Assembly: GCA_023515795.1 (NCBI GenBank)
Contig: JALGPX010000052.1
Span: 1-64,000, forward strand
Length of the DNA: 64,000 nt
Source: Amoeboaphelidium occidentale
Taxonomy: Eukaryota; Aphelidiomycota; Aphelidea
Direction of reading: 5' to 3'
The notes under the pieces were generated by a model that searched no databases, was not told the DNA's origin, and saw only the letters and a program-made list of their open reading frames with translations. Positions within the stretch are counted from its first letter, which is position 1. Every line of letters begins with the position of its first letter. Of the stretch, positions 19,374 to 47,919 are shown piece after piece. The position numbers and the translations under genes are program-made.

Positions 19374-19571
19374 ATGAAATTCTTTGCTGTTATTTTGACT
19401 GTTTTATCTTTGGCATTCGCTGTTCCTCACGGTTCTTATGGCGGTGTTGTTGGTTCTCAACAAGGGCTTCCTCAGCCTCTGGTGGAAATCGCAGGTGGTA
19501 TTGACCGCCCTCCTCGCAGCCCTCCAAGCCCAATTATTGGTGCTCCACCTGGACTACGCCCAAGACCGTAA
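19374..19571 (+). CDS. Small secreted SPPSPLIGAP-family protein 1
   Basis: 65 residues from ATG 19374 (an upstream in-frame ATG at 19317 would hide the signal peptide). Signal peptide MKFFAVILTVLSLAFAVP, then a Gly-rich linker and the family core PPRSPPSPIIGAPPG with a short Arg/Pro end. No cysteines, so it is not a disulfide-stabilised effector. It is the most diverged member of the family described under 19765 and 20323. The biochemical role is unknown. Confidence 0.65.
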   Translation: MKFFAVILTVLSLAFAVPHGSYGGVVGSQQGLPQPLVEIAGGIDRPPRSPPSPIIGAPPGLRPRP

Positions 19572-19690
19572 ACATGATTTGCTATTGGTTAATCAATAAA
19601 CAACTTTTGATGACATATTTTAGCTTATGGCAACACTGTTTCCATTTGAGTTGATTGCGATCTCACTCCCGGCAACACTCCACGTTAGCG

Positions 19691-19728
19691 ATTGGCTGCT
19701 TAAATTACTGAACCAGGTTTAAATAGCG
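19691..19728 (+). promoter_or_regulatory. Promoter pair: inverted CCAAT plus TATA-like box
   Basis: ATTGGCT (inverted CCAAT) at 19691 and TTTAAATAGCG at 19718, about 37 bases before the ATG at 19765. The same arrangement occurs at 20254/20281, 46786/46817, 47265/47308 and 47955/47996, before the other family members. Confidence 0.6.
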
Positions 19729-19764
19729 TGCTCAGTATTGCCTCAATATCCTCAACAACTACAA

Positions 19765-19995
19765 ATGCAAATCATTCAGTTAATCGCCATCTTCGCATTC
19801 GCTATCATCAGCGCTCCTGGTGCTCAAGCTGGAGTTGCTCGTTTGACACCTGTTGCAAAGAGTCCTCCAAGTCCTCTTATCGGTGCACCTATTGAGGATC
19901 GTCTAGGTCAATCTTCAAGCACCACTACAACTACTATGGCAGAAGCTACACCAACCTTGATTTTTGGTTCTGTGGATGCAGAAGCAATGCCTTAA
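19765..19995 (+). CDS. Small secreted SPPSPLIGAP-family protein 2
   Basis: 76 residues from ATG 19765. Signal peptide MQIIQLIAIFAFAIISAPGAQA, then the core KSPPSPLIGAPIEDRLGQS, a Thr/Ser run and the end SVDAEAMP. Nearly identical to the gene at 46519-46749 on the other strand, including about 90 bp of promoter, so the two arose by a recent inverted duplication or conversion. Unknown function; no cysteines. Confidence 0.75.
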   Translation: MQIIQLIAIFAFAIISAPGAQAGVARLTPVAKSPPSPLIGAPIEDRLGQSSSTTTTTMAEATPTLIFGSVDAEAMP

Positions 19996-20252
19996 AGTAT
20001 GAAAGCAGGTTTTTATAATAAATAATTTTCTTTGGAATTTACTTGCTATTCTTGCCGCTTCGATATTCACGCTTCTGTACATCACATCCATTTCTTAGAA
20101 TTTCTGTGAAACCTTTCTAAACTTGTGCAACGTGTCAATTCAAGTAGTACAAATCGGCTGTTACCTTCGGCACGGCAGATGATTTTCTGCGGCTAGCTTC
20201 GGTATTTGAAGTTTCTTGTTACACGGTTTTGGTGTAACCCTAATTGGCCCCT

Positions 20253-20290
20253 GATTGGCTACCCCTGGAGCGATCCAAATATTTAAAGCG
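20253..20290 (+). promoter_or_regulatory. Promoter pair: inverted CCAAT plus TATA-like box
   Basis: GATTGGCT at 20253-20260 and ATTTAAAGCG at 20281-20290, 33 bases before the ATG at 20323. Same layout as the other members of the small secreted family. Confidence 0.6.
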
Positions 20291-20322
20291 TCAAAACAGT
20301 TGGAATTGTTTTTCAAACAAAA

Positions 20323-20544
20323 ATGAAGTTCATCGCAGTTATTTTGGCTATCCTACCATTGGCATTCGCAGCTCCACAGATCGCTCCACCACCTCGTAGG
20401 TTCAAAAGTCCTCCAAGTCCACTTATCGGTGCTCCTATCGAGGATCGTCTAGGCCAGTCTGAAACCACCACAACAGAAGTCGTGACCGCACCAGAAACAA
20501 CCGACGTCACTATCGGTCCTGCTGATGCCGTAGCTATGCCTTAA
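20323..20544 (+). CDS. Small secreted SPPSPLIGAP-family protein 3
   Basis: 73 residues from ATG 20323: signal peptide MKFIAVILAILPLAFAAP, then QIAPPPRRFKSPPSPLIGAP, IEDRLGQS, a Thr/Glu/Val stretch and the end ADAVAMP. It links the two subtypes. Its N-terminal half matches the short members at 47080 and 47779; its C-terminal half matches the members at 19765 and 46519. Role unknown. Confidence 0.75.
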   Translation: MKFIAVILAILPLAFAAPQIAPPPRRFKSPPSPLIGAPIEDRLGQSETTTTEVVTAPETTDVTIGPADAVAMP

Positions 20545-20757
20545 GTTGCCAGGTCAGTTTCAATAAATTAATTTTGGGTTGGTTTGATTATCAGTGCCAT
20601 CTTTATGTGCTTATTCACGCGTCTATTCTAATCCTAAAGTACCTTGTGCACCTCTTGCAATGAAATGAAATAGCCTTAATTTTCAGCCGCGTTTGTTAAA
20701 GGTCTTAGTTTCTGTGGCTCGCATGAAACCATCCAGATAAATTTTGAAGTTTCTCTC
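20545..20757. other. Spacer between small secreted gene and ERdj gene
   Basis: Nothing recognised beyond an AATAAA-like signal (CAATAAATTAA near 20560) after the small secreted gene. Confidence 0.4.
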
Positions 20758-45866: not shown

Positions 45867-45907
45867 ACCGTCATGGTACTTTCGATGTACTTCTTTTTTT
45901 AAACAAC

Positions 45908-46379
45908 ATGCCAAAGATTCGACGAAATCGCACAAAACCACCTCCGGAAGGATTTGAGCTTATAGAAGATACACTAAAGCAATTCGACCAGAAGATGCGC
46001 GAGGCAGAGTCCAAGCCAAATATTGGATTATCAAAGCATGAGGCTCTGTGGCCGGTATTTCGATTGCACCATCAGCGGAGTCGATATGTATATGAAATGT
46101 ACTACAAAAGACAAGCCATTTCAAAAGATGTTTATGACTACTGCCTGAAAGAAGGATACGGCGATGCTAATTTAATTGCGAAATGGAAGAAGGTAATTCG
46201 TTGGATGTAAAGATTTAATGTTGTAGCAAGGATATGAAAACTTGTGCTGTTTGAAGTGTATTCAGCCACGAGACACAAACCACGGAAACGTTTGTATATG
46301 TCGTGTACCCAGAGAAAAGCTTGACGAAGAACGGAGTATTGCGTGTCTACATTGTGGATGTCGCGGTTGTGGTGGTTAA
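45908..46379 (+). CDS. BUD31: Splicing factor BUD31 (G10)
   Basis: Core component of activated spliceosomes; 145 residues, close to the family length. Exon 1 carries PKIRRNRTKPPPEGFELIE and LHHQRSRYVYEMYYKR. A 34-nt intron (46193-46226) joins WKK to QGYENLCCLKCIQPRD. The Cys-rich zinc-cluster end (CICRVPREKL, CLHCGCRGCGG) is complete with a stop at 46377-46379. Without the intron the frame would end early after RWM. Confidence 0.96.
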
Positions 46380-46518
46380 TATAAAATATATGTTCTTGAT
46401 TTTACCAAAAGGCAGTATGCAGCTAGATGTCCAGTAGATACTTATTTTTGGGTTAAATTGCATAAAGTAAGCCAAATATATTGCAGAAAATTTTATTTTG
46501 AGTCTTTTGTTTCATCCA

Positions 46519-46749
46519 TCAAGGCATTGCTTCAGCATCAACAGAACCAAAAATCAAGGTTGGTGTAGCTTCTGCCATAGTAGTTGAGGTTGTGCTTGAA
46601 GATTGACCTAGACGATCCTCAATAGGTGCACCGATAAGAGGACTTGGAGGACTCTTTGCAACAGGTCTCAAACGAGCAACTCCAGCTTGAGCACCAGGAG
46701 CGTTGATGATAGCGAATGCGAAGATGGCGATTAACTGAATGATTTGCAT
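46519..46749 (-). CDS. Small secreted SPPSPLIGAP-family protein 4
   Basis: 76 residues, nearly identical to the gene at 19765-19995 (Asn for Ser, Arg for Thr and Ser for Thr changes). Signal peptide MQIIQLIAIFAFAIINAPGA, core KSPPSPLIGAPIEDRLGQS, end SVDAEAMP. Identity extends about 90 bp into the promoter (to near 46843), which shows a duplicated unit rather than a retrocopy. CCAAT and TATA-like boxes at 46817 and 46786. Confidence 0.75.
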   Translation of the reverse strand: MQIIQLIAIFAFAIINAPGAQAGVARLRPVAKSPPSPLIGAPIEDRLGQSSSTTSTTMAEATPTLIFGSVDAEAMP

Positions 46750-47079
46750 TTGTAGTTGTTGAGGTTATTGAGGCAATACTGAGCACGCTATTTAAACCTG
46801 GTTCAGTAATTTAAGCAGCCAATCGCTCACGTGGAGTGTTGCCATTCGCAAGATGATGTGTATTCGTGAATAGCAACGCGTGTTGCCGCAAGATGTATAG
46901 TAACGCGAGACGATGACGCGAGGTGAATAAGTCTGTGAATACGAACCGTTCCTCGCGTACCAAGCTTTTCGCGTTCCTAAAGTTTGAGCGAGAAGACGCA
47001 GGACGAAATGAAGAAATTCCCAAAAGTTTTTTATTGACTTAACCAATATTGTAGTCAGCTCAGATAAAGCAGCTCATGT

Positions 47080-47229
47080 TTACGGTCTTGTGATACGTTG
47101 TTCAGATGGAGCGCCAATAAGTGGACTTGGAGGAGCTCTTCCTTTTCTGTCCTTAGGAGACGTAGGAGCGATCTGTGGAGCAGCTAGAGCCAAAGGTAAG
47201 ATAGCCAAAAGAATTGCAACGAAGTTCAT
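47080..47229 (-). CDS. Small secreted SPPSPLIGAP-family protein 5 (short form)
   Basis: 49 residues from ATG 47229: signal peptide MNFVAILLAILPLALAAP, then QIAPTSPKDRKGRAPPSPLI, GAPSEQRITRP. The mature part would be only about 31 residues. It belongs to a tandem pair with the gene at 47779. An upstream in-frame ATG at 47388 would place the signal peptide inside a longer protein and is unlikely, since the TATA box lies between. Confidence 0.7.
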   Translation of the reverse strand: MNFVAILLAILPLALAAPQIAPTSPKDRKGRAPPSPLIGAPSEQRITRP

Positions 47230-47264
47230 ATTGTTTTCTGAAGAAAAGGAGTGAAAATTTTTGT

Positions 47265-47312
47265 CGCTTTTTATACGCAGATCCTCGCATTTTGAAGCGC
47301 GGGTCGACCAAT
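47265..47312 (-). promoter_or_regulatory. Promoter pair for short secreted gene 5
   Basis: On the minus strand TATAAAAAGCG (47265-47275) lies 36 bases before the ATG at 47229, with ATTGG (CCAAT on plus, 47308-47312) about 35 bases further up. The same pair recurs at 47955-47965 and 47996-48004 for the next gene. Confidence 0.6.
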
Positions 47313-47778
47313 CAAATATGATGTTTGTGTTACGCAGTTGCTTGTAGCGTCGCACAGTGAAACTGTGCAACGTTCTGAAACCATGCACAAATCGCGAATG
47401 ATGCCGCGAACGCGTAAGACATTGAGCCTGATTAGAAACGGGGAGGATTTCAGGGTAATATATAGAGCAGATCTGCGTTCAGGCCTTGTTATTCTGCGAA
47501 GACTGGCACTAAACCTTACTACTCTGTACATTACCATACTTTTTGTTTTGCGAATGAGAGCAACAGGTTCATTCACATTTCGTATGTAGTTTCAAAGAAA
47601 GTCAATTCCTTCTAAGCAAGGGTCTAACGCGTCTGGCCTTTCGGAATTGAACGAAGATGGACGCGATCTTTTGATGGAAGTAGATTGTTTGGACGAAGAC
47701 ACAAAGCAGCCAAACTTCTCAAAATTTTTTTATTGATTAACCCAGTTTTGTAGTCCGCTAAACCAAAGCAGATCATGT

Positions 47779-47919
47779 TTACGGTCTTGTGATACGTTGT
47801 TCAGATGGAGCGCCAATAAGTGGACTTGGAGGACTTTTGAAGTGACGTGGTGGCGGGGCGATCTGTGGAGCAGCGAATGCCAAAGGTAAGATAGCCAAAA
47901 GAATTGCAACGAAGTTCAT
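47779..47919 (-). CDS. Small secreted SPPSPLIGAP-family protein 6 (short form)
   Basis: 46 residues from ATG 47919: signal peptide MNFVAILLAILPLAFAAP, then QIAPPPRHFKSPPSPLIGAP, SEQRITRP. The mature peptide would be about 28 residues, the shortest of the family. Its core is almost the same as that of the gene at 20323, so the two clusters exchange or share ancestry. Confidence 0.72.
   Translation of the reverse strand: MNFVAILLAILPLAFAAPQIAPPPRHFKSPPSPLIGAPSEQRITRP

Follow-up and report, generated by a model that had tools for sequence, protein, structure and literature searches.

Small, putatively secreted peptides with a common proline-rich core are encoded by two gene clusters of the aphelid Amoeboaphelidium occidentale

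Lineage-specific families of small secreted proteins are known from fungal and fungus-like parasites; the criteria are a signal peptide, a short mature part, no other domain and no later transmembrane helix. Fungal alpha-type mating pheromone precursors are also short and signal-bearing, with a conserved linear stretch, and release repeated peptides at conserved dibasic sites of the Kex2 type. Proline-rich antimicrobial peptides are defined by a proline content of at least 25% and a net charge of at least +1, and target DnaK or the 70S ribosome (PMC7736402, Box 1). In Chlamydomonas reinhardtii, the wall retained constructs of the hydroxyproline-rich glycoprotein GP1 better when they carried more PPSPX units than when they carried none to three, and the authors of that preprint state that PPSPX was not dissected apart from SP motifs (PMC11785195). 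Here we compare with these systems six genes of Amoeboaphelidium occidentale, an endobiotic parasitoid of Scenedesmus dimorphus (PMC7325670). The genes lie in the first 64,000 nucleotides (nt) of contig JALGPX010000052.1 (assembly GCA_023515795.1, forward strand), called the window throughout, and are labelled g1 to g6 in coordinate order, with window numbering. We tentatively read them as a lineage-specific family of small secreted peptides that would be disordered, present a proline-rich binding motif and act like effectors where the parasite contacts its algal host.

Aphelids, which kill microalgae from within, diverge at the base of Fungi or next to them, and little was found on their secreted products. 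NCBI taxonomy places them within Fungi and other authors beside Fungi (PMC10608142), in agreement with the early-diverging fungal setting expected when the genes were first noticed. A full-text literature search for secreted effectors of aphelids gave no aphelid paper by title; a dual RNA-seq study of A. protococcarum used a pathogen-host-interaction database to name effector candidates (PMC8657485).

The six genes and their products are:
19374..19571, plus strand: g1, 65 amino acids (aa), putatively signal-bearing, divergent member with IIGAPPGLRPRP end; intact frame
19765..19995, plus strand: g2, 76 aa, long form with Thr-rich tail ending DAEAMP; intact frame
20323..20544, plus strand: g3, 73 aa, long form with Thr-rich tail ending DAVAMP; intact frame
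46519..46749, minus strand: g4, 76 aa, near-copy of g2 (96% identity); intact frame
47080..47229, minus strand: g5, 49 aa, short cationic form ending ITRP; intact frame
47779..47919, minus strand: g6, 46 aa, short cationic form ending ITRP; intact frame

The original prediction of six genes at these positions was confirmed: all frames were present and intact, with signal-like N-termini (a hydrophobic stretch of 16–22 residues with a mean hydropathy of 1.5–2.4) and no cysteine in the mature parts. Cut sites were placed by eye and gave predicted mature lengths of 49, 54, 57, 54, 33 and 30 residues for g1 to g6, so that the expected 28–58 residues became 30–57. Two types of flank occur. They are short and cationic in g5 and g6, a type to which g1 also belongs, though it is built differently; in g2, g3 and g4 they are long, with an acidic, Thr-rich tail that ends in DAxAMP.

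All members share a core of the type [KR][SA]PPSP[LI]IGAPxxxR, which is located as follows:
19515..19547, plus strand: core of g1, residues 48–58
19858..19890, plus strand: core of g2, residues 32–42
20404..20436, plus strand: core of g3, residues 28–38
46624..46656, minus strand: core of g4, residues 32–42
47107..47139, minus strand: core of g5, residues 31–41
47806..47838, minus strand: core of g6, residues 28–38

All nine aligned sequences (six from the window and three from metagenomes) share an invariant PPSP-x-IGAP and, at the fourth residue after it, an invariant Arg. The core that had been proposed for all six genes, K/R-SPPSPLIGAP, was real as a family feature, and the exact string occurred in only four of them, g5 having RAPPSP and g1 PPSPIIGAP. 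It was followed by [IS]E[DQ]R in 5/6 window members, as had been expected for most of them. A degenerate DNA pattern for P-x-P-hydrophobic-I-G-A-P matched the 11.3-Mb genome six times, always in the window, and its reversed control did not match. With the looser pattern PP-x-P-hydrophobic-hydrophobic-G there were seven genome matches and one for the reversed control. By eye, the seventh match (PPSPLVG, contig 188) is antisense to a frame that contains a membrane-like stretch, with a kinase-like frame nearby, and it was read as chance. In this genome the family is confined to two clusters. This confinement, the upstream module described below and the counterparts in metagenomes argue against a chance origin of the core family.

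The core is conserved between the paralogs. Over the 15 pairs, with gaps counted, 18/165 core positions differed as against 682/983 other aligned positions, and the ratio of replacement to silent change (pN/pS) in the core was 0.18, the pairs not being independent. The cores of g2 and g6 differ by six silent changes and no replacement in 11 codons; because of this silent divergence, the common core is not fully accounted for by recent gene conversion. Between species the contrast was not significant (2/33 core versus 26/158 other positions; one-sided Fisher p = 0.097), and pN/pS was about 0.26–0.32 in the flanks of g3 and g6 and, from change counts, about 0.25 for whole g2 and g4. The original prediction of a conserved core within fast-changing flanks was thus correct for the paralogs, and it was borne out neither between species nor by the g3/g6 flanks. 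Genes g2 and g4, about 27 kb apart and in opposite orientation, are 96% identical and have upstream DNA in common, which points to a recent event between the clusters, either an inverted duplication or a conversion.

No relative was recognized outside this species and metagenome sequences, as had been foreseen from the lack of any nameable similarity. None of the six genes matched Pfam at the gathering score (g5 had only a sub-threshold match to OppC_N, 16.6 of 23.9 bits), and no PDB relative was found by sequence profile at E-values up to 10. One pattern match in viral contigs was not confirmed by tblastn, and searches of the window with Rfam (gathering threshold) and for tRNAs with ARAGORN gave nothing. 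The core string was not found in the full-text literature searched, and a multi-term search for small secreted proline-rich orphans gave no match. Protein searches returned only A. occidentale records and metagenome proteins, and a second search with the enlarged alignment (E up to 10) returned the same six records as the first. The homologues hoped for in related genomes were found as metagenome counterparts of three gene types: P0011 for g1 (55/66 aligned positions identical, 83%), P0009 for g2 (68/76, 89%; a complete 76-residue protein) and P0010 for g5 (40/49, 82%). The best metagenome match of the neighbouring DnaJ protein was 97% identical over 92% of its length, compared with 89, 82 and 83% for the counterparts; these matches may stem from different organisms. 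No record named A. protococcarum appeared in the family searches or in the DnaJ search. Proteins of that species are reported under GenBank-type accessions (PMC10057920), and A. occidentale and A. protococcarum are placed far apart (PMC10608142). Absence from A. protococcarum is therefore weak evidence, as not even a DnaJ record was so named. From these searches the family appears to be lineage-specific, without a match in the libraries searched and found only here and in close metagenome relatives. The residue after PPSP is Leu in g2 to g6 and Ile in P0009 and P0010, though the paralog cores have silently diverged. This difference could reflect co-change with a common partner, parallel change, gene conversion or chance, between which two conservative cases cannot decide.

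Five of the genes are preceded by a common promoter module, and all six are followed by AATAAA:
19690..19728, plus strand: promoter module of g2 (GATTGG ... TTTAAATAGCG)
20253..20290, plus strand: promoter module of g3 (GATTGG ... TATTTAAAGCG)
46786..46824, minus strand: promoter module of g4
47265..47313, minus strand: promoter module of g5 (GATTGG ... TATAAAAAGCG)
47955..48003, minus strand: promoter module of g6
19595..19600, plus strand: AATAAA of g1
20017..20022, plus strand: AATAAA of g2
20562..20567, plus strand: AATAAA of g3
46492..46497, minus strand: AATAAA of g4
47030..47035, minus strand: AATAAA of g5
47729..47734, minus strand: AATAAA of g6

In g2 to g6, GATTGG (an inverted CCAAT box) is located 70–84 nt and a TATA-type box 43–47 nt before the ATG. 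The pattern GATTGG-N15-35-TWTWWAWAGCG matched the window five times, exactly at g2 to g6, with an expectation of 0.00 from 100 shuffles. The sequence TATAAAAAGCG had two matches in the 11.3-Mb genome (g5 and g6) versus seven for the reversed control, and the DNA upstream of g6 matched only itself and g5 in a genome search. When the TATA-type box was searched together with its downstream extension, the matches were g3, g5 and g6, plus a single contig 13 site (reversed control 1). The contig 13 site was rejected, having no GATTGG in the preceding 150 bases and, by eye, no signal-like frame behind it. AATAAA starts 17–44 nt past the stop codon in all six genes, a count that has no control behind it.

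Codon usage was shifted towards a reference of presumably highly expressed genes (eEF1A, histone, ribosomal L4 and actin-family exons). The pooled codon index of the six genes was 0.655 versus 0.542 (standard deviation 0.022, 2000 draws) when the same residues were coded with the codon choice of 26 hand-picked large window frames. Singly, g1, g2, g4 and g5 exceeded this null (p 0.03, 0.008, 0.0005 and 0.0025), and the plain index of g2, g4 and g5 was above all 26 background frames (0.524–0.650). Each gene is probably its own short transcription unit and strongly expressed.

The chain ends and the predicted fold were also considered. A C-terminal proline was found in all nine family proteins (six window, three metagenome) but in only 1/26 large window frames, whose last exons were taken as read. 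With the by-eye cut sites, X-Pro stands at the start of mature g1, g3, g5 and g6 (4/6 window members). These ends should slow exopeptidases and suggest chains suited to withstand them. The AlphaFold2 model of g6, made from a nine-row alignment, contained a single helix (residues 3–15), in the putative signal peptide; the predicted local distance difference test (pLDDT) was 61–67 in the last four blocks and the predicted template modelling score (pTM) was 0.26.

On the reading that we favour, removal of the signal peptide would leave a short disordered chain that displays [KR][SA]PPSP[LI]IGAPxxxR, in extended form, as the ligand of a single fixed partner. The core looks like a linear binding motif because there is one proline-rich core per chain, kept while the paralogs change around it. 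The Thr-rich acidic tails of the long forms would perhaps be O-glycosylated, and the action would take place outside the parasite, where it meets the alga. We infer secretion, abundance and the motif-ligand mode; that the peptides act on the host side is a guess from the life style alone, the parasitoid fixing itself to an algal cell, penetrating it and digesting it. Like the small secreted families of other parasites, the peptides are short, putatively signal-bearing orphans with tandem paralogs, and they are less conserved than a cellular neighbour (82–89% versus 97%). They differ from those families in being Cys-free, in having one Pro-rich linear core and a common promoter module, and in that positive selection was not seen. 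Such a compact family with a near-invariant motif offers an easy entry to aphelid secretion, and one synthetic peptide could be used as bait.

Several observations weigh against this reading. Orphan state alone says little, since another aphelid expresses many species-specific genes strongly: in its zoospores they made up 120 of the 589 highly expressed genes (PMC11767097). The metagenome counterparts may derive from a conspecific strain. Host-directed effectors often show positive selection, which was not seen in the g3/g6 flanks or in whole g2 and g4 (pN/pS about 0.25–0.32). The cores of g5 and g6 differ by no silent and three replacement changes, so that the proposed check by silent and replacement changes came out well for the 15 pairs taken together and badly for this pair. 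The promoter pattern was composed after inspection of the five genes and shows peculiarity within the window, not prediction, and g1 is without the module. The codon reference comprises only 951 codons from partial exons of 7 of 19 loci, one of which encodes an actin-related protein; g3 and g6 singly were not above the codon null (p 0.10 and 0.13), and the plain indices of g1, g3 and g6 (0.638, 0.608 and 0.597) fall inside the background range.

The six proteins might instead belong to the parasite's own coat, as small glycoprotein-like parts of the cyst wall, the appressorium stalk or the amoeboid zoospore surface that the core would hold together. Aphelids make a cyst and a penetration tube (PMC3975115, PMC7325670), the Thr-rich tails of g2 to g4 would suit O-glycosylation, codon usage fits abundance, and the adjoining upstream gene encodes another signal-bearing, low-complexity Gly/Ala-rich protein. 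Mature parts of 30–33 residues are small for structural material, however, and there are no cysteines, no core repeats within a protein and, by eye, no hydrophobic tail of the glycosylphosphatidylinositol type; we regard a coat function as rather unlikely, though worth keeping in view. A role as proline-rich antimicrobial peptides, which would protect the parasitised algal cell from bacteria, is improbable. The short forms resemble the apidaecin, drosocin and pyrrhocoricin types in being Pro-rich, cationic, linear and Cys-free: mature g6 has 30% Pro and a net charge of +3, g5 (24.2%, +4) and g1 (24.5%, +2, one PRP motif) are near the limit, and metagenome P0010 has 27% Pro, +3 and one PRP motif. 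Nevertheless, only g6 among the six window members and one of the three metagenome members pass the full definition (PMC7736402). At least 25% Pro was reached by 1/6 and 1/3, leaving five window members below it, and a charge of at least +1 by 3/6 (g1, g5, g6) and 1/3. The other half of the window members, g2, g3 and g4, are anionic (−1 to −3), and the conserved SPPSPLIGAP is itself uncharged.

It is less probable still that zoospores, gametes or siblings signal to one another through these peptides, as a pheromone or self-signal whose core is the ligand of one receptor for all members. Short, putatively signal-bearing peptides from several genes with one conserved linear core would fit, as would the single promoter type of five genes, and the likeness to alpha-type precursors extends this far. 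Unlike in those precursors, there is a single core per precursor, without repeated units, and no Kex2-type site is shared, KR/RR occurring in the mature part of g3 only and RK in g5; neither an amidation Gly nor a CaaX end was present in the sequences. The lack of a shared site also spoke against the processed core peptide of the original prediction. As a whole that prediction was partly supported, and its proposed roles, signal, wall component or host-directed factor, could not be told apart. Proteins with two cores would arise if adjacent genes were spliced together, as in the NCBI records MP638_000508, which joins g1 to g2, and MP638_000522, which joins g5 to g4. Possible GT and AG sites were seen by eye at the joins. 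Each join drops a stop codon, an AATAAA and the promoter module of the second gene. It also removes, largely or completely, the putative signal peptide of that gene, which the complete protein P0009 retains. For these reasons the six genes were read as separate; both records appear to be spurious joins of family genes that lie side by side, and real fused proteins are very hard to credit. The public annotation of this genome thus seems to merge such small genes in at least two models.

Mimicry of the PPSPX motif of green-algal wall glycoproteins by the core is a long shot that we keep as a lead only. Many tiny ligands secreted by the parasite would bind in the hydroxyproline-rich Scenedesmus wall, or compete there, at the sites of cyst attachment and penetration-tube entry. 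The likeness to Chlamydomonas GP1 consists of one PPSPX unit in the core (PPSPL or PPSPI, in 9/9 members). An algal PPSPX wall glycoprotein is marked by multiple repeats, by hydroxyproline O-glycosylation and by wall association, whereas the family has one unit per member that is parasite-made, and no homology was found. A single such unit need not bind, and PPSPX mimicry leaves the IGAP-xxx-R part, which has no counterpart in the PPSPX motif, unexplained.

Cluster 1 is flanked on its left by the Gly/Ala-rich gene and, beyond that, by genes with 3'-5' exonuclease and ABC-transporter domains, and on its right by a DnaJ-domain gene and then a C2-domain gene. Among the neighbours scanned, cluster 2 has a SNAPC3-domain gene on one side and TPR and kinase genes on the other. 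The gene at 18577–19235 (plus strand), directly upstream of g1, encodes a signal-bearing, low-complexity protein with a Gly/Ala-rich middle, an Arg run and an HAGHRH end; a TATATAAAGC box lies some 40 nt upstream of its start codon, and it has no Pfam match. At 18111–18374, a run of 20 N (18233–18252) stands between two copies of a 122-nt sequence that are 99% identical, which looks like a scaffold-gap artefact. Two adjoining frames with voltage-gated chloride channel (CLC) domains occupy 31475–37735 (minus strand), and two adjoining frames with protein-kinase domains are located at 49595–52743 (minus strand).

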